From Hybos culiciformis (lineage: Eukaryota; Arthropoda; Insecta; Diptera; Hybotidae), in the NCBI GenBank assembly GCA_964007475.1, contig CAXFZM010000303.1:1-64000 (forward strand): a stretch of 64,000 bases of DNA, in the 5' to 3' direction. Numbering within the stretch: position 1 is the stretch's first letter; each line of letters starts with the position of its first letter. The translations under genes and the position numbers were made by a program. The notes below the pieces were generated by a model. That model saw nothing but the letters and a program-made list of their open reading frames with translations. It did not search any database and was not told where the DNA came from. Below, one piece after another: positions 2,216 to 46,109 of the stretch.

Positions 2216-2998
2216 TTTTTCTAAATGTCATGATTTAGTACTATTTATGTACACTTACTATAAAGTATTAAAAATTTTAATTTTTTTGTAAACTTTTTTT
2301 TAATAAAATAAATCAAAATTGTTTTTGGAATTAAAAATTAAAATAACTCAGAAATACATAAATAAACCTTAATATAAATTTAAGAAAAATACATAAAAAA
2401 AATTCAATTCTAAAAAATTATATTAATAAATTTTTCAAAAAGAATTAGCCTCAAAAAAATAATTAACAAAATACTTATAGTATTTCGAATCTTACAAGAC
2501 ATTTTGTAGTTTTATCACATATCGTCATAGAATTTAAAAAAAAATACAAAAACGTAACACTTAAGGGGGTATTCTGGTCTAGAGGCACGAATTTAATGGA
2601 ATTTTTGCTATAAAAAAAATCAATCAATATTTTTACTATCCATTTTTTTATATTTTATTTATTAATGTTTTAAGAATACAGTAAAAAAAAAAAAAAGTAA
2701 AAAATTCAAAATTCAATGAGTTCGCAGCTGATGAAGTGAGGGCTCTCAAAAATTTGGCACGTGACCATTCCCACGATTCAGCTCTTCTGGCAATTCGAAA
2801 AAAAAAACGCTTATTAATCTATACGAATGCCTCTATCGTTCGAACTAAAAGAGTTGAAAAAAATTTTTTTTTACAAAATGGCGACTACTTGAAAAAAAAT
2901 TTGTTTTTGGACCATTTTTTTCGAGTTTTTGAAAATTTTTAAAAATAGTAAGCATTAAAATTTTGGGATGAGGATAGTTCATGCGATGAAGAAGACGT
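2216..2998. other. AT-rich repeat DNA interrupted by the gypsy insertion
   Basis: Polymorphic A/T runs, then sequence from about 2570 that resumes after the LTR element at 11,294. The last four bases before the element (ACGT, 2995-2998) are repeated after it (11,294-11,297). No supported gene. Confidence 0.5.
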
Positions 2999-3244
2999 TG
3001 TAATGCCCCCTTATCATTATGTACATAATACTATATACATTATATATTATAAGCTCTCTTTCTCTTATTATTATTATTCGTTAAGTTATCATAGTATTAG
3101 TTAATAAGAAAGTATAAGACATGTCTAGGTACTTAGTTTTAAGTCAGTTTTATAATCACTTCTTAAATAGTAAACATATAATAAATAAGTCTGAAGTTTA
3201 ACCACCTGTTGTTTTTTATTAAAAGATACCCTAGTGGTATCACA
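2999..3244 (+). repeat. 5' LTR of gypsy-1
   Basis: Starts tgtaatgccccc and ends gtggtatcaca. Matches 11,048-11,293 with one substitution. It should carry the promoter and polyadenylation signals; I did not identify a clear TATA box. Confidence 0.95.
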
Positions 3245-3260
3245 TGGCGACCGTGACAGC
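3245..3260 (+). other. Primer binding site, tRNA-Arg type
   Basis: tggcgaccgtgacagc lies directly after the LTR, where minus-strand DNA synthesis is primed. This sequence matches the tRNA-Arg primer site known from mdg1/412-type insect elements. The same site in reverse complement marks the decayed second copy at 37,095-37,110. Confidence 0.85.
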
Positions 3261-5243
3261 TGCCATTTAGGCAGGCTGAAATTTTTTTTTAGTCTGAAAA
3301 AGTTATTAAAAGTGACTATAAAATTATAAAATTATTTTATTTTATGGAATTCTTTATAAAAATTCTAAATAAAATAAAACTATAAAAAAAAAAGAAAAAA
3401 TTTGAAAAAAAAAATTAACTTGATATTAGAGAAATAAATTTCTACAAAAAAAAAAATATAAGAAAAATTGGAATTATTTATCAAAATTATATTTTTTTAA
3501 AATTAGAAAATGAAGAAATGAAAAAAAAAATAAAATTAAAATTTAATTTCAAAAAGAAAAATTTGAAAAATTTAAAATTTTATCAAAATATCAAACCTAG
3601 AATTAAAGAAAATTTTTTTATTTAACTTACCTCACTTACCTTAAAATTATCCAAAAAAAAAAATTAATTTTTTTTACCTACCTTAAAATTCCTGAAAAAA
3701 AAAAAAAAAAAAAAATAATAAAAATCCTAAAATAAAATTAAAAAAAAAAAAAAAAGACACAAAAAAAAATATGGCGACATAAAAATTTTAATTGAAAAAA
3801 AAAAATATTTTTCAAATAAAAAATTAAATCACGCCACAAAAAAAAAAAAAAAAAAAAAAAATTTGTATAGAAAATTTGTATTCAAAAAAAAAAACGCGAA
3901 CAACTTTAATAACAAGAAAAAAAAAAAAAAAGGCGCAAAAAACCTAAATAAAGAAAACAATATTTTTTTTTAAAAAAAAAAATACAATTAAAAAAAAATG
4001 GTTAAAAAAAAAATATAAAGAAAAAATTCAAAAATTAATTACACATACATACAAACTAAAATTGGTTTGAAAGAAAAAAAAAGAGAAAAAAAAAAAAAAA
4101 AAAAGACATTTCAAACATTTCAAACATTTCAAACATTTTTCTCTCATACAAAAAATTTTTATAATAAAGTGACATTTCAAAACAAAATAAATTTTGAAAA
4201 AAAAAAACTTATAAATAAATTCAAAAATTTTTAAAAATATGATTTTCCAAAAAGCGAATCGAAATATAGGAATTTCTTTTCGAACTCCTTATATAAATTG
4301 AAAAAAAAATAATTTTTTAAATAACAGAAAATTATGAAAAAAAATAAAATATTAAAAATAAATAAAAATAAACATAACATCAACAACAACAGCTGTATTT
4401 GTACATCATGAGCAGCAGAAACGACAACAGCAGCAGCAGCTACCAAAATCCAATTATCAACAGCAAAGTAGTCAACTAGAAGCAGCAGCAAATTCAACAA
4501 CAAGTACTTCACTAAATTATAAAAATTTTTTATATACAAATAAATTTTTCAAAAAAAAAAAAAAAAAATACATTTTTACCAAATTTTAAATTTAAATAAA
4601 ATAAACTTAAAAACAATGTAGATCCAAATTTTTACATAAACAATTTTTACTTTTCAACTTAAGTAAATAATTTTCAAATTTTTCAATTTCAATCAAATTT
4701 TTTTAAATTCTAATATTTGGATGTGCACTGTTTCAAAAATTTTATATTACAAAAATTATCATATATTATTTTACAATTACTAAAAATTAAATATTAAATA
4801 TTAAATATAAAATATAAATATATTAAATATATAAATGGAAAAAAAAAAAACTTTTAAATTAACAATAAATATTAAATAGTTAAGAATTACATAATTTTAC
4901 ATAATTTACTTTGAACTTATTATTCCACATAAAAATTTTGCAATTGAATATTACATCATTTACTTTGAATTGATTTCATCAAATTTTTTTTTCTTCTTCG
5001 AAAATAAATAAATAAATAAAGAGATATTATTATACTCTTATTATTACTTATTACTAATTATTATTATATTATTACTTTTTACATGTTACTACATATTTCA
5101 ATTTTGATTTAAAATTACATAATTAAAAATGGTTTAACATAAGCAAAATTTTGCTTAACAAAATTACTTTATTTTATTTGACATCTTTATTTTCGCTGGA
5201 AGTGATTCATATTCCAATAACAACATATCTAATTTTGCATATA
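3261..5243 (+). other. Long A-rich leader of gypsy-1
   Basis: About 2 kb of non-coding DNA with many A runs of 8-24 bases and no supported ORF. A CAA/CAG-rich stretch at 4379-4503 is the only complex segment; a related CTG/GTT-rich stretch occurs in reverse complement in the second copy (about 35,230-35,290), so it is a family feature. Confidence 0.75.
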
Positions 5244-23027: not shown

Positions 23028-23808
23028 CGGGTAGAACCTCTCTAAGTTATACACTCTCTAAGTTAGAAACCTCTGTAACTTATAATTTTTTTCCAGCCGT
23101 TCATATTTGTATGAAAATGTGCCTCTATAACTTAGACACCTCTGTAAGTTAGACACCTTGATAAGTTAGACAATATTTCATACATTTTTAGAATCAAAAA
23201 CCTCGGTAAGTCATACATAAAAATAAAAATTTTTATAAATTTTAAAAATTGAGAATTTTGAGAAAAAAAAATTGAGCAAAGCACACTGAGCAGAAAGTTT
23301 TAATGAATTTAAGTTAATGTTTAAACAAATATTCATACAAACTTTAATTAAAATAACTTAAATATGAAATTTTTTTCCGTGTTCACAAATACATTTTCTC
23401 GTTTTTTTTTTTGTCAATACACAGAGAAAATCGTTACGGTTTTGAAATTCTATAAAAATAATTAAAAGTGAAATACCGTATTTGAAGTGAATTTAAAGAA
23501 AAATTAATGAAAATGGGCAAAAAATTGAAAGAATTAAAATTAAAAGAAAAAGTAGAAGCGATTGAAAGAATTAAAAATGGAGAATCTGTAACTAAAGTTG
23601 CTGAATCTTAAGAAATGATATTTTTTTTTCTTTTTTATTTTATTTATTACCAATACTTTGTTTTGTCTTCCTATTGATGTTTTTCTACCTAAATAAATAG
23701 GTTGAAGTGAAAAACAACTTAGACTTATTAGGTCAACATAAGGAAGCAAAGTAGGCCTCTAGGTTTTTAAACTAAAAACTAGTAAAATATTTTGTTTAGG
23801 ATATATGG

Positions 23809-23884
23809 AAATTTGTTTCGATCGCGTTCGTCCACTCTGATCTCATCAGTGGCTGATGAGTGGACGAACTAGCCAGACAAACTT
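23809..23884 (-). ncRNA. Type III hammerhead ribozyme, copy 1
   Basis: Read on the minus strand: stem III aagtttgt pairs with acaaattt (8 bp, one G-U); cleavage triplet GTC; stem I tggct/agcca; core ctgatga; stem II gatc/gatc; core gaaa. Every conserved core base of the hammerhead family is present. Loops I and II contain 12 nt of perfect complementarity (gttcgtccactc with gagtggacgaac). The order, open at stem III, makes it type III. Confidence 0.88.
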
Positions 23885-24227
23885 CACTCCAAAATAATTA
23901 TTACCACTTTACATATAATACTATATGTAAGATTGATATGTACTATATGTAAGATTGATATGTGAGTTCAAACAATTTTTTGAATTCACATATCAAATGT
24001 GGCAAAAAAATTTTTCTTGTTACTTTTTATAAGAAACAATTTTTTTTTCTTTTTTATTTTATTTATTACCAATACTTTGTTTTGTCTTCCTATTGATGTT
24101 TTTCTACCTAAATAAATAGGTTAAAGTGAAAAACAACTTAGACTTATTAGGTCAACATAAGGAAGCAAAGTAGGCCTCTAGGTTTTTAAACTAAAAACTA
24201 GTAAAATATTTTCTTTAGGATATATGT

Positions 24228-24275
24228 AAATTTGTTTCGATCGCGTTCGTCCACTCTGATCTCATCAGTGGCTCA
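24228..24275 (-). ncRNA. Truncated hammerhead ribozyme, copy 2
   Basis: Retains stem III 3' strand, the gaaa core, stem II and ctgatga, but the sequence switches to an inverted unit just after the core, losing the cleavage site and most of stem I. It cannot self-cleave on its own. Confidence 0.8.
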
Positions 24276-24555
24276 TCAGCCTAGAGGCCTACTTTGCTTC
24301 CTTATGTTGACCTAATAAGTCTAAGTTGTTTTTCACTTTAACCTATTTATTTAGGTAGAAAAACATCAATAGGAAGACAAAACAAAGTATTGGTAATAAA
24401 TAAAATAAAAAAGAAAAAAAAATTGTTTCTTATAAAAAGTAACAAGAAAATTTTTTTTGCCACATTTGATATGTGAATTCAAAAAATTTTTTGAACTCAC
24501 ATATCAATCTTACATATAGTATTATATTTAAAGTGGTAATAATTATTTTGTAGTG

Positions 24556-24631
24556 AAGTTTGTCTGGCTAGTTTGTCCACTCATCAGCCACTGATGAGAT
24601 CAGAGTGGACGAACGCGATCGAAACAAATTT
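24556..24631 (+). ncRNA. Type III hammerhead ribozyme, copy 3
   Basis: Stem III 24,556-24,563 with 24,624-24,631; predicted cleavage after C24,564; stem I 24,565-24,569 with 24,586-24,590; ctgatga 24,591-24,597; stem II 24,598-24,601 with 24,617-24,620; gaaa 24,621-24,624. Loop I differs from copy 1 by one base (gtttgtccactc), which keeps pairing to loop II as a G-U. Confidence 0.88.
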
Positions 24632-24952
24632 CCATATATCCTAAACAAAATATTTTACTAGTTTTTAGTTTAAAAACCTAGAGGCCTACTTTGCTTCCTT
24701 ATGTTGACCTAATAAGTCTAAGTTGTTTTTCACTTTAACCTATTTATTTAGGTAGAAAAACATCAATAGGAAGACAAAACAAAGTATTGGTAATAAATAA
24801 AATAAAAAAGAAAAAAAAATTGTTTCTTATAAAAAGTAACAAGAAAAATTTTTTTGCCACATTTGATATGTGAATTCAAAAAAATTTTTGAACTCACATA
24901 TCAATCTTACATATAGTATTATATGTAAAGTGGTAATAATTATTTTGGAGTG

Positions 24953-25028
24953 AAGTTTGTCTGGCTAGTTCGTCGACTCATCAGCCACTGATGAGATCAG
25001 AGTGGACGAACGCGATCGAAACAAATTT
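24953..25028 (+). ncRNA. Type III hammerhead ribozyme, copy 4
   Basis: Stem III 24,953-24,960 with 25,021-25,028; predicted cleavage after C24,961; stem I 24,962-24,966 with 24,983-24,987; ctgatga 24,988-24,994; stem II 24,995-24,998 with 25,014-25,017; gaaa 25,018-25,021. Loop I reads gttcgtcgactc, one mismatch to loop II. Lies 397 bp after copy 3, defining the unit length. Confidence 0.88.
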
Positions 25029-26674
25029 CCATATATCCTAAACAAAATGATATCTTCTCCGAAATATATAAAAATCTTTTTATAATTTTTTTTTTCAACA
25101 ATTATTTAGGCATAAATCGGTCGACTTTATACAAAATTTACAAAAATAAAGAAAATATTTCAGAAGCTATTGAAGATAACCCGAATCTTCTGAAGCGTAA
25201 ACGGATGGTAAAAAAAAAACCTTGACCAGGCAATGAATACATTTTCGAAAAATGCGCGAAGTCAAAATGTTCCTATTTCTGGAACCATTTTGAAATCGAA
25301 AGCAAAAACAATATTCCAAAATTTAAATATGATTGATTTCAAGGGTAGTAACGGTTGGCTCGACAGTTACAAAAAGCGAAACGACATTAAGTTTAAATGC
25401 TTGACTGGTGATGCTGCAAATGTCGATGAAAGTGTTGCTGAAAATTATGTAAAAAATGTTTTGCCACCATTATTAGCCCGATACCAACCTGAAAATATTT
25501 TTAATGCAGATGAAACAGGCCTGTTTTTTCAATGCCTTCCTGGTAAAACAATGGCATTTAAAAATGATAAATGTTTGAAAGGTAAAGCTATTTGTATTTT
25601 ACACATTTCCAAACTTTTTTTTTTAATTAGTCTAATTAATTATTTTATCGCTTTCATAGGAAAATTTAGTAAAACACGAGTTACGGTGATGCTTAGAAGT
25701 AATATGGACGGATCGGAGAAGTTAATTTCTCTTGTTATTGGCAAAAGTGCAAAGCCTAGATGGTTTCGCAATATTAAATCTTTACCAGTCATTTACAAGA
25801 ACAACTCCAAATCTTGGATGACATCCTTAATATTCGAAGAATGGCTAACAAGTCTCAACACCAAATTTGAAAATGAAGACCGAAAAGTGTTGCTATTCTT
25901 AGATAATTGTTCGGCTCACCCAAAATCTATTAAAACAAAATTGACTGCAATAGAATTACATTTTTTTCCACCGAACATGACCTCTAAGCTTCAACCAATG
26001 GATCAAGGAATAATCCGTATTTTAAAGACGCATTATAGGCATGCAATTGTTATTCGATACCTACAAGCAATAGAGCAAAACACATCACTTCCTAAAATCA
26101 GCTTAATTGATGCAATAAATATTTTGGTTGAATGTTGGGCTTCAAAAGTTACGCCTGAAAAGGTGAAAAATTGGTTCAAGAAAGCGGGATTTTCAAAAAA
26201 TAATGGAGAATGCTCTGAAATAAGAGACGAATTAGTTGAAATTGATGTATTACGAGACGCATTTGAAAAATATCCTGATTGTGGCAACAGTTTCATCGAT
26301 TTTATCGACGTCGATGAAAATATTTTAACAGCAGAAAATCTTCTCGATTATGATGTTGTAGAATCGTTGGCTGAAGATCGTTTGTCGACTGATGTAGAGA
26401 TAGAAAATGAAACTGAAGATTGATTAAAATTTAATTTATATGTTGCTTATAATAATACAAGTATACTTGCAATAAAATTTGCAAAAAAAAAAAAATTTCA
26501 ATAAAAATTAAAAAATTTTAAATAATTTTGTTGTATTTAAATTTTTAATTTTTTTTTTCAGTGTCGACAAAAAAAGATAAATAAAAAATAAACCCTTCTA
26601 TCTCAGACAACCTCTATAAGTTAGACTTTTATCTGTTCCCGTTGAGTGTCGAAGTTAGAGAGGTTCTACCCGTA

Positions 26675-41042: not shown

Positions 41043-41796
41043 GGGGGATGGAAATAAGGCCGCAGGAAATAAGGCCGCGACGTTTTTTTGTTGCGGTCTT
41101 ATTTCATTTTGAAAAATGAAATAAGGCCGCGAAGATTTTTTCGCGGCCTTATTTCGTTTTTCAAAATGAAATAAGGCCGCGACAAAATCCTCGCGGTCTT
41201 ATTTCATTTTGAAAAATGAAATAAGACCGCAAAAAATTCCTCGCGGCCTTATTTCGTTTTGAAAAATGAAATAAGGCCGCGACAAAAAAAAACAATTATT
41301 CGGAGGGCTAATTTCATTTTTATAAACGAAATAAGGCCGCGTAATCTTGTGAGGTGAGCACACAGGGCAGGGGGCAGCAGGGCGGCGGGCGGGCGGTTGG
41401 TCAGTGGGATTTGCGGCGTTAGCCGCAAATCCCACTGACCAACCGCCCGCCCGCCGCCCTGCTGCCCCCTGCCCTGTGTGCTCACCTCACAAGATTACGC
41501 GGCCTTATTTCGTTTTTCAAAATGAAATAAGGCCGCGAAAAAATCCTCGCGGCCTTATTTCATTTTTCAAAATGAAATTAGCCCTCCGATTAATTTTTTT
41601 TTTTGTCGCGGTCTTATTTCATTTTTCAAAACGAAATAAGGCCGCGAAGAATTTTATGCGGTCTTATTTCATTTTTCAAAATGAAATAAGACCGCGAGGA
41701 TTTTTTCGCGGCCTTATTTCATTTTTCAAAATGAAATAAGACCGCAACAAAAAACCTATCGCGGCCTTATTTCCCGCGGCCTTATTTCACTGCGCC
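41043..41796. mobile_element. Foldback element B, 754-bp palindrome
   Basis: Nearly symmetrical about ~41,420. Arms are built from many gaaataaggccgcg units forming nested hairpins, and the centre is the GC-rich block gggcagcagggcggcgggcg in both orientations around gcggcgttagccgc. Ends gggggatggaaataagg / ggcgcagtgaaataagg are inverted repeats. Flanked by the 9-bp duplication attcgaact (41,034-41,042; 41,797-41,805), as in FB/MULE-like elements. ORFs across it are artefacts. Confidence 0.92.
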
Positions 41797-43822: not shown

Positions 43823-44374
43823 GGACACAGGTTCAAAAACCGAAGACAGCAAAAAAATCTGGTATCAATAATTGAAATCTAGCAAGGAGAAATAGATGAT
43901 AATTGCAGAAACTAGATTTTAATAATTTTCAAATTTGTCTAAAACTATTTTAAAACAATATTCTAGTTTTAAATTTTCAATATTGTAATCTTGTTTACTA
44001 AAATAACTGGAATATTAAAGATCTGAAATGTTCGGTAAATAATTTGTAAAATTTTACCTAGAAATCTAGCTTTTGAGAATTAGATTTTTGCGTGAACTGG
44101 CTTTTGAAACTATAAAACTATTTTCAATAATTGAATTTCCCAGTAAAAATCCTTTAACTAGATCAGAGCCGTAACTAGGGATTAAAAAGGCCCTCACCCA
44201 TTTCACATTTTTCGAATTTTAAACAGTTTTTATTTAGAAAACATGATTTATTACAGCTTTATACAAAATTTCAAAATTCAAAGTTTATGTAATTTTTTTG
44301 ATAAATTAAACGACCAATTTGTTCAGACAAAAAATTTTTTTATATTCTTTGATTGTTAATTTACATCAAAAATT

Positions 44375-44413
44375 GCTAACGTTTCGACCTATGTTGTAGG
44401 TCCTCTTCAGAGC
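44375..44413 (-). ncRNA. Hammerhead-like motif of the Penelope element
   Basis: Minus strand: ctgaaga (44,410-44,404), a hairpin gaccta/taggtc with an extra G, then gaaacg (from 44,385). The core fits the CUGANGA...GAAA pattern reported for Penelope-like elements, but stem III and the cleavage triplet are not evident here. Confidence 0.4.
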
Positions 44414-45179
44414 ACTAAAAATTTTTTTACAAATTATTTTAAAAAAATCAAATCAAAAAACAACAATTAAATTGAAGTATGTAAAACAGTAACTAAAATA
44501 CATAAGAACATTAACATACTTACAAGTTATTATCAATTAACAATTAAATGACCTAATAAAATTATGTTTTTTTATTTTTATTTATAATTGTAAAACTTAA
44601 AATTTAAATCTTTCTTTAATAAATTCAAAAAAAATTTTCATTTTATAGGTAATTATGTTTATATTAACAAAACACTTCGTTAGTATGAATAAAACTAAAT
44701 GAAAAAAATTTAAATTGAAAACTTGATTTATAAAAATTTCAAATAAAATTGCAGGTACAAAAAACTTTTTATTGAAAAGAAAAAAATTATTTTAAATTAT
44801 TTTAAGAAATATTTTTGCATATTGTTCTCTAAAAAACCTTTACGATATGAATCAAAATATGATAAAACAAATCATAAGTTCAAGGAACTCTAATTACTAT
44901 TACTGTCAAACAATGATAAATCAATATTAAGTGTAATTTAGACAAAAATTGTTCCTAGAGCAAAAACCAAAAAAACTTCGAGCTATAAAATTGATAGAAA
45001 ATTAACGTTAAATGTAATTAAATAGAATTATAAATGTTACTCAACTTATCTGTATCTGTCTGTGCATTCAACGTATTTCTTGTTGACTTTATGTAGAGCA
45101 TTTCAGAAACGTTACGTTTGTATAAGTTAGATTCTATGTCAAGTATTCTTGGCGTTAATAATGATACAACTCCCAATAT

Positions 45180-45970
45180 TCAATTGATTTTATGATTGTT
45201 ATTTATTCTATGTAACGTAATTACATTGTGCTTATCCGGAAGTGATTTAATATTATCCTTATGTTCTTTGAGTCTGGTTTCTAGAGCTCTTTTTGTCTGA
45301 CCTATATGACAAGCTGAACAATCAGAGCAATCAACTCTGTATACTACATTGTGTTGTCTATTGTTTTGCAACTTATCTTTACCCTTCTTAACTATAGAGT
45401 TTAACTTGTTGTCTATTCTAAATATTGGTTTGGCATTTATTGTTTTTAAATAACAAGAGAATGTTTTTGACGTTATGTGTGGTAAGGTAATGTTAAAAAT
45501 TTTTAGTCTGTATTGTTATTGTTATTATTGATTAAATTATTGTTAACACGATATTTCATTTGGTTTTTTCGAATTTTAATGAATTTATCGATAAAAGATA
45601 ACGGGTAAGAATTATTAATTAAAATCTTTCGAATGGTAAGTAAATTTTTTTGATGAAATTTGGAGTGAGAGAGTAAAAGAGCTTTAACAACTAAATTGAA
45701 AACTATAACTTTTTTATGAAAAGTGGGATTATTTGAATGAAAGTTTAATAAGCGTCCTAAATATGTTGGTTTTCTGTGCCAATTAGTAATTATTTTAGAA
45801 TTGTCGTTGATAATCATAACATCAAGGTAACTTAATTGTTTGTCAATTTCTAATTCATAAGTAAATTTTATTTTTAAATGGTAGCTATTAAAACTAGCCA
45901 AAATTTCACCTATTTTATTTTTTGGGAAAATAGAAAAAATATAATTTTTTTGTCTGAACAAATTGGTCAA
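45180..45970 (-). pseudogene. Penelope-like RT and GIY-YIG endonuclease
   Basis: 45,503-45,970 encodes the C-terminal part of a Penelope-type RT (LSYLDVMIINDNSK, WHRKPTYLGRLLNFHSNNP). 45,180-45,371 encodes the GIY-YIG endonuclease start with its CCH-type residues (VVYRVDCSDCSACHIGQT, ALETRLKEHK). A frame change or stop lies between them (~45,375-45,500). RT palm motifs are absent, so the element is 5' truncated. Confidence 0.85.
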
Positions 45971-46109
45971 AAATATTAAAAACAGACGTTAACCAAACCA
46001 AGAAATATTTATGTAATTTTCTTCAAAATTAATTTTTGTTAATTTGTTAAATTATTTGAAAATTATTCGAATTTTTGTCGGGAGAAAAGTTAATGTCTAG
46101 TCTAGATCC

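Follow-up and report, generated by a model that had tools for sequence, protein, structure and literature searches.

The retrozymes without long terminal repeats (non-LTR retrozymes) described from metazoans use type I hammerhead ribozymes (HHRs; Cervera and de la Pena 2020, PMC7229834), and the same paper leaves their mover between long interspersed nuclear elements (LINEs) and Penelope-like elements (PLEs). Type III hammerheads of animals have so far been tied to RNAs resembling hepatitis delta virus (HDV) and to genomic motifs of termites and flies (PMC7936874); because that paper refers to forthcoming work on fly type III HHRs ("in preparation"), related elements may be covered in further literature. 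PLEs are known for head-to-head inverted ends, duplications of 8-10 bp, junction palindromes and an optional tail (PMC3846280), and one tested PLE carried out reverse transcription from two internal RNA sites and cut both strands of AT-rich DNA (PMC11167929). Here we describe a retrozyme-like insertion in the first 64,000 nucleotides of contig CAXFZM010000303.1 of the dipteran Hybos culiciformis (GenBank assembly GCA_964007475.1), this whole stretch being referred to below as the window. Judged from sequence comparison, it is probably (probability about 0.68) one insertion of a non-autonomous, non-coding, non-LTR retrozyme whose unit measures 397 nt and includes a type III HHR, and which is moved by PLE machinery. 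The motif, its dispersal, the duplications, the head-to-head arms, the two fixed 3'-end sites and the like anatomy of PLEs are observed directly. As judged from literature listings, none of the open-access papers listed announces a type III retrozyme of a fly.

The net insertion could be delimited exactly, because its 9-bp target-site duplication, AAATGATAT, was found in the window at just the two flanking positions (Table 1), and these limits are those of the 1.42-kb insertion proposed in the original prediction. The host frame that it splits is transposase-like, with DDE_1 and HTH_Tnp_Tc5 identified by Pfam in 25212-26423 and the portion upstream of the insertion recognised by eye alone. Both arms, a minus arm followed head to head by a plus arm, are built from the 397-bp unit and are inverted repeats of each other. 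The unit length of about 397 bp predicted earlier holds for the plus arm, with a period of 397 according to Tandem Repeats Finder, whereas one minus-arm copy has 419 bp rather than 397 and contains a 22-bp internal tandem duplication. The unit is non-coding, the longest ATG frame in unit trimers being 16 aa and 35 aa for the consensus sequences of two subfamilies, A and B, respectively; its 42-nt palindrome is kept between these subfamilies except in the loop. Sequences similar to the T2 tail were located at two more places in the window, each with 2 mismatches, which is about chance level.

Table 1. Coordinates of the retrozyme-like element, its hammerheads and the comparator PLE in the window
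Feature	Position	Strand	Basis or remark
Whole insertion, retrozyme-like element	23622..25044	.	Duplication at both ends; homologous insertions elsewhere in genome
Target-site duplication AAATGATAT, left copy	23613..23621	.	
Target-site duplication AAATGATAT, right copy	25045..25053	.	
Minus arm: unit 326-397, 1-397 (with 22-bp duplication), 1-169; 3' end at T1	23622..24279	-	
Plus arm: unit 26-397, then 1-397; 3' end at T2	24280..25044	+	
T1, A-rich tract, one of two arm-end sites (internal copy here)	24794..24821	+	
T2, ATATCCTAAACAAAAT, other arm-end site, 3' of hammerhead	25033..25048	+	
42-nt palindrome (hairpin) of unit	24863..24904	+	Other copies 23955-23996, 24466-24507
Type III hammerhead, expected cleavage after C23876; loops I/II exactly complementary over 10 nt	23808..23885	-	Descriptor; RF00008 28.9 bits
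Type III hammerhead, expected cleavage after C24564; one G-U in loop-loop pairing	24555..24632	+	Descriptor; RF00008 28.9 bits
Type III hammerhead, expected cleavage after C24961; one mismatch in loop-loop pairing	24952..25029	+	Descriptor; RF00008 28.9 bits
Truncated hammerhead (unit 326-397) at head-to-head junction	24208..24279	-	
Comparator PLE insertion, outside element: minus arm long, plus arm short and tailed	44286..46020	.	Homology to PLE loci; arm limits by eye

Searching both strands of the window with an explicit type III descriptor revealed three HHRs and nothing else, and 60 dinucleotide shuffles of the 64-kb window gave 0 matches. All three motifs have CUGANGA, GAAA and NUH in type III order, all core bases and three stems (I, 5 bp, UGGCU/AGCCA; II, 4 bp, GAUC/GAUC; III, 8 bp), with GUC preceding the cleavage site. 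The three complete hammerheads predicted earlier were thus recovered with their core bases and stems I-III, and the truncated one was mapped as well (Table 1). In the minus copy, loop I (GUUCGUCCAC) is the exact reverse complement of loop II (GUGGACGAAC). Pseudoknots between loops have been described in many HHRs (PMC3088659), and also in fly and termite HHRs of type III (PMC7936874). With queries of about 120 bases, the only ones to return matches (laxer filters), Rfam model RF00008 aligned over positions 1-54 of 54 to each of the three HHRs (E 8.7-8.8e-5), and a subfamily B copy scored 27.6 bits (E 2.1e-4). A scan of the window and the PLE loci for type I HHRs found nothing. On the antisense strand of the unit, CTGATGA is present and is followed by GAAC instead of GAAA, and no HHR was detected there by the descriptor. 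The exact 53-nt HHR pattern occurred 0 times in viral contigs, and the unit had no match in phage records.

One unit of A and one of B were used to search the assembly (342 Mb, 509 contigs), giving at least 109 and at least 95 matches, respectively, at E<=0.001; these counts are lower bounds because only part of the first-look candidates was scored (40 of 118 for A, 40 of 108 for B). Three of the 43 insertions mapped (L013 against L012, L029 against L028, and the second in L040) were dropped because their flanks were the same as those of another insertion, leaving at least 40 distinct insertions on several contigs that fall into two subfamilies of about 80% identity (331/414 columns of consensus A and B are the same). 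The original prediction had placed ribozyme-bearing tandem units in an arthropod, inferred that they were mobile and called type III unusual among animal retrozymes. Each point is in line with what was found: 1) the type III motifs lie in non-coding units of a dipteran, as identified by mitochondrial COX1, 2) the copies are not confined to one locus, and their mobility is supported by at least 40 dispersed insertions, with duplications of at least 8 bp at 21 of 40, and 3) the metazoan retrozymes described in PMC7229834 are of type I and the fly unit is of type III by the descriptor. The COX1 sequence lies on contig C509, and among the matches listed (at least 120) it was nearest, at 96%, to entries of Hybotidae/Empidoidea and Drosophila, all names displayed being those of flies or of larger groups to which flies belong. 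A run of 72 consecutive bases identical between A and B corresponds to the HHR (0 of 20000 permutations), and 30 of the 40 copies spanning the HHR are intact by the descriptor (three duplicates included, L046-L049 left out). Taken together, the identity run and the intact copies suggest selection on the HHR; recombination between the subfamilies is another possible cause of this uniformity.

Duplications of at least 8 bp flanked 21/40 insertions, compared with 1.8% of 782 mismatched flank pairs; they are 8-20 bp long (9 bp in the window) and contain 82.7% A+T versus 74.9% in the flanks. Head-to-head arms, with two outward-pointing 3' ends, were seen at 25/40 insertions. In a table of 3' ends compiled by hand, 61 of 65 fall at T1 or T2, 25 of them at unit positions 128-173 (the A-rich T1) and 36 at 371-397 (T2; CCTAAACAAAA in A), where ends up to 14 nt beyond the unit end were counted as T2; the other four belong to L010, L017, L027 and L030. 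Among the 21 insertions with both ends in T1/T2, 19 had one of each, the expected share being 0.48 if the ends were independent (p 6e-5); the short low-complexity arms of L019, L031, L032, L037, L041 and L044 were judgement calls that favour a PLE-type reading. Head-to-head arms with two fixed 3' ends, the PLE-like anatomy, the 10-nt loop complementarity and a hairpin hiding the core all go beyond the original prediction. It was also noticed that in five inverted insertions (L009, L011, L020, L034 and L035) both arms start within the hammerhead, whose loops are palindromic, and the junctions look as though they had been formed by annealing there. Arm lengths of exactly one lap were considered as proof of a circular template and dropped, as there were three cases only.

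The PLE insertion of Table 1 is a natural comparator sharing the retrozyme's window: it is head to head with a tail on one arm only, and is bounded by an 11-bp duplication, TATGTAATTTT, at 44286-44296 and 46010-46020 and nowhere else in the window. Its frame gave 121 matches in the genome, several of which are exact 3587-bp tandems with 849-aa frames (arrays at L058 and L059 on contig C328, and on G000:C1 near 54464670 and 138482482); because the tandems are exact and the frames open, the PLEs have possibly been active recently. The P1 protein has a GIY-YIG domain. For the protein of PLE family P2, Pfam returned no domain on the protein itself, 57 of its 60 relatives have a precomputed reverse transcriptase domain (PF00078), and the nearest relative has RVT_1 and a borderline GIY-YIG. 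On this domain architecture, we take these elements to be Penelope-like. Neighbouring PLE matches on opposite strands, transcribed by hand from the genome matches, were minus-plus in 12 cases and plus-minus in 1. In P2, plus arms stop after CCAAGAAAAA (L053, L055), and CATCAA or CATCAAAAA stands before the end of minus arms (L055, L056); the arms differ by a tail that reaches up to 35 nt. The ends of P1 copies follow ACAAAACATTAAAAAA or ACAAAA (L062-L064). A looser motif search of the PLE loci showed that these ends lie beyond a CTGANGAG..GAAAC motif, which is called HHR-like only, because Rfam does not recognise it.

Retrozyme and PLE insertions can thus be compared directly in one genome, where head-to-head arms, two start sites and AT-rich duplications are common to both. 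The fly element resembles PLEs (PMC3846280, PMC11167929) in its head-to-head arms, partial tandem, duplications of 8-10 bp and longer, palindromes at arm junctions, two start sites beyond an uncut HHR and AT-rich targets. It differs from them in that the unit has no reading frame, the HHR is type III rather than the minimal type I reported for PLEs, and the second start site lies about 130-170 nt from the first, versus 30-40 in PLEs. This shared style of insertion is a hint as to the enzyme behind the movement of such repeats in animals. A unit-multimer RNA would be transcribed and cut by the hammerhead into unit-length pieces, perhaps ligated into circles. A PLE protein would then cleave AT-rich DNA on both strands. 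Either target end would prime reverse transcription within the RNA, T2 serving one end and T1 the other, past a hammerhead left uncut, and the two cDNA arms would join head to head; arms of more than one unit would be accounted for by a template that is circular or multimeric.

The LINEs offer an alternative, in which a multimeric retrozyme RNA is copied by a LINE reverse transcriptase through ordinary twin priming, T1 being an internal poly(A) and T2 the 3' end. As twin priming is generally understood, variable duplications of 8-20 bp and head-to-head arms also suit it; moreover, T1 is A-rich, fragments of LINE-type reverse transcriptases are present in the window, and the choice between LINE and PLE is left undecided in PMC7229834. 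However, twin priming predicts scattered starts of the second arm, yet T1 is paired with T2 in 19/21 two-ended insertions, and in the comparison of ends, which covered the PLEs of this genome, each arm of a PLE had an end site of its own, two in all. We therefore consider copying by a LINE enzyme unlikely. The term "twin priming" had no occurrence in the open-access literature on the subject among the matches listed.

Several observations weigh against movement of a cleaving type III retrozyme by PLE machinery. As for the anatomy, 19/40 insertions have no duplication of at least 8 bp, the 3'-end table depends on manual compilation, and comparison of the unit with 12 PLE loci (L050-L061, most of the 121 PLE matches being outside it) gave only low-complexity or very short matches; because no sequence homology to these 12 loci held, the link between retrozyme and PLEs rests on anatomy. 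As for the ribozyme, 10/40 HHR-spanning copies are broken. All RF00008 scores are below the gathering score of 48.5, and no hammerhead was reported by Rfam at gathering on the window or at E<=10 on 1.8 kb; across the genome, where 68 of 25752 candidates were scored, RF00008 had 0 matches at E<=0.001, and the control genomes were silent too. The Rfam hammerhead model, named as a check in the original prediction, thus aligned end to end with short queries at a score below gathering, and the wide searches missed it.

Further points on the same side come from folding. The predicted minimum-energy fold is a long hairpin instead of the HHR, with CAUCAG paired to the core CUGAUG, and it is predicted even in a partial transcript. 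Its energy is -30.2 kcal/mol; the nested stems of the HHR reach -10.0, to which the loop-loop duplex adds -16.0 at most, in a model that omits non-canonical core contacts. Base pairs were counted in 28 of the 40 HHR-spanning copies (22 distinct), and the two folds are equally supported, pairs being kept in 96.6% of cells for the HHR and 96.9% for the hairpin. Double changes were absent from stems I and II; one was found in stem III (GC/AU), which is common to the rival hairpin, and one in the loop pairing. Covariation was therefore rejected as proof of the HHR fold, because the hairpin scores equally. Circular consensus RNAs of both subfamilies were predicted to be more stable than shuffled sequences (z -6.75 and -6.0, 60 shuffles each), and both folds hold the HHR in closed form. 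In published work, metazoan retrozyme circles are mostly predicted with a free HHR and plant circles block it (PMC7229834), and the hammerhead of an Anolis PLE, which is protein-assisted, showed no cleavage in vitro without added protein (PMC11167929). The locked fold leads to the prediction that cleavage may need a protein partner.

Such a locked HHR also suits a non-autonomous element derived from PLEs whose hammerhead would be a passive relic or a mere binding site and would never cut in vivo. The mapped arms run uncut through the cleavage site, and in the Anolis system mutants lacking HHR cleavage insert nonetheless (PMC11167929). On the other side, the 72 identical bases lie exactly over the HHR and 30/40 copies are intact, which suggests selection, and recombination could also explain the uniformity; on balance, a hammerhead that never cuts appears slightly less probable again than copying by a LINE enzyme. 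As an extension of the main reading, one may imagine the unit as a switchable ribozyme circle, in which the HHR would be shut by the CAUCAG/CUGAUG hairpin and opened by bound PLE protein, and the PLE reverse transcriptase would start from both ends of the target, priming at T2 and T1, and run round the circle, giving head-to-head arms longer than one unit. This extension is tentative, and we regard it as rather doubtful; if true, animal retrozymes would be non-autonomous partners of PLEs.

A further alternative sees in the conserved 72-nt block no more than a hairpin, or a promoter-like element, that mimics a hammerhead. The hairpin has the lower predicted energy, its pairs are kept as well as those of the HHR, and each unit contains one B-box-like GATCGAAAC. 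Against this, the full HHR core with three ordered stems was absent from all 60 shuffled windows, RF00008 gave E ~9e-5 for each window copy, and GAAA and stems I and II are kept though the hairpin requires neither, which makes mimicry very improbable. Finally, the palindrome-rich repeat could point to an assembly artefact or to a local duplication, tandem or inverted; this reading is already contradicted by 40 distinct insertions on several contigs, 21 of them with their own duplications, and has next to no probability.

The B-box of RNA polymerase III (Pol III) promoters has the consensus GWTCRANNC. The fitting GATCGAAAC lies inside the hammerhead at 25014-25022 of the window (unit 363 in A, 354 in B), and the unit of either subfamily has a single such match. 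An internal Pol III promoter was considered and rejected, this match being probably a by-product of the HHR.

Like metazoan non-LTR retrozymes (PMC7229834), the fly element has non-coding units that stand in tandem and fall within 170-400 nt, a low GC content, copies dispersed in the genome, duplications of more than 4 bp, a stable circular fold and PLEs in the same genome. Its HHR is type III instead of type I and is blocked in the predicted fold; the accessible part of that paper describes neither head-to-head arms nor two fixed 3' sites for metazoan retrozymes. With plant LTR retrozymes it has in common the type III HHR, the lack of coding capacity and an HHR blocked in the predicted circle. 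It differs from them in a unit of about 397 rather than about 700 bp, AT-richness, duplications of more than 4 bp in place of a 4-bp target-site duplication, and the lack of an LTR arrangement. The atypical type III HHRs of termites, flies and HDV-like RNAs (PMC7936874) likewise have a 5-bp first stem of helix I and loop I-loop II pairing; the retrozyme HHR is set apart from them, by description, in having no extra helix I hairpin, a stem II of 4 instead of 6 bp, and loop complementarity over 10 instead of about 4 nt. Termite type III HHRs are isolated motifs according to the same source, whereas the retrozyme HHR is carried by a dispersed, tandem, mobile unit. Such a dispersed type III unit could plausibly supply circular RNA agents with ribozymes.

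Some retrozyme copies have themselves received insertions. In L025, an 834-bp element with CAGGGTTGCCAC ends (2225-3058) sits inside the hammerhead core with the 8-bp CTGATGAG on both sides, and in L010 a 2494-bp element with imperfect inverted ends (CGTCGG..CCGACCG) is nested in the retrozyme insertion at 2510-5003. An insertion shared by L025 and L039 was considered and rejected, the inserts matching each other only briefly and weakly. Elsewhere in the window, palindromic tandem repeats with GCGGCCTTATTTC arms and a period of about 50 were located at 41093-41287 and 41498-41773. In addition, broken COX1 pieces resembling nuclear copies of mitochondrial DNA were observed in G000:C215 and at G000:C3:44776390-44776983.

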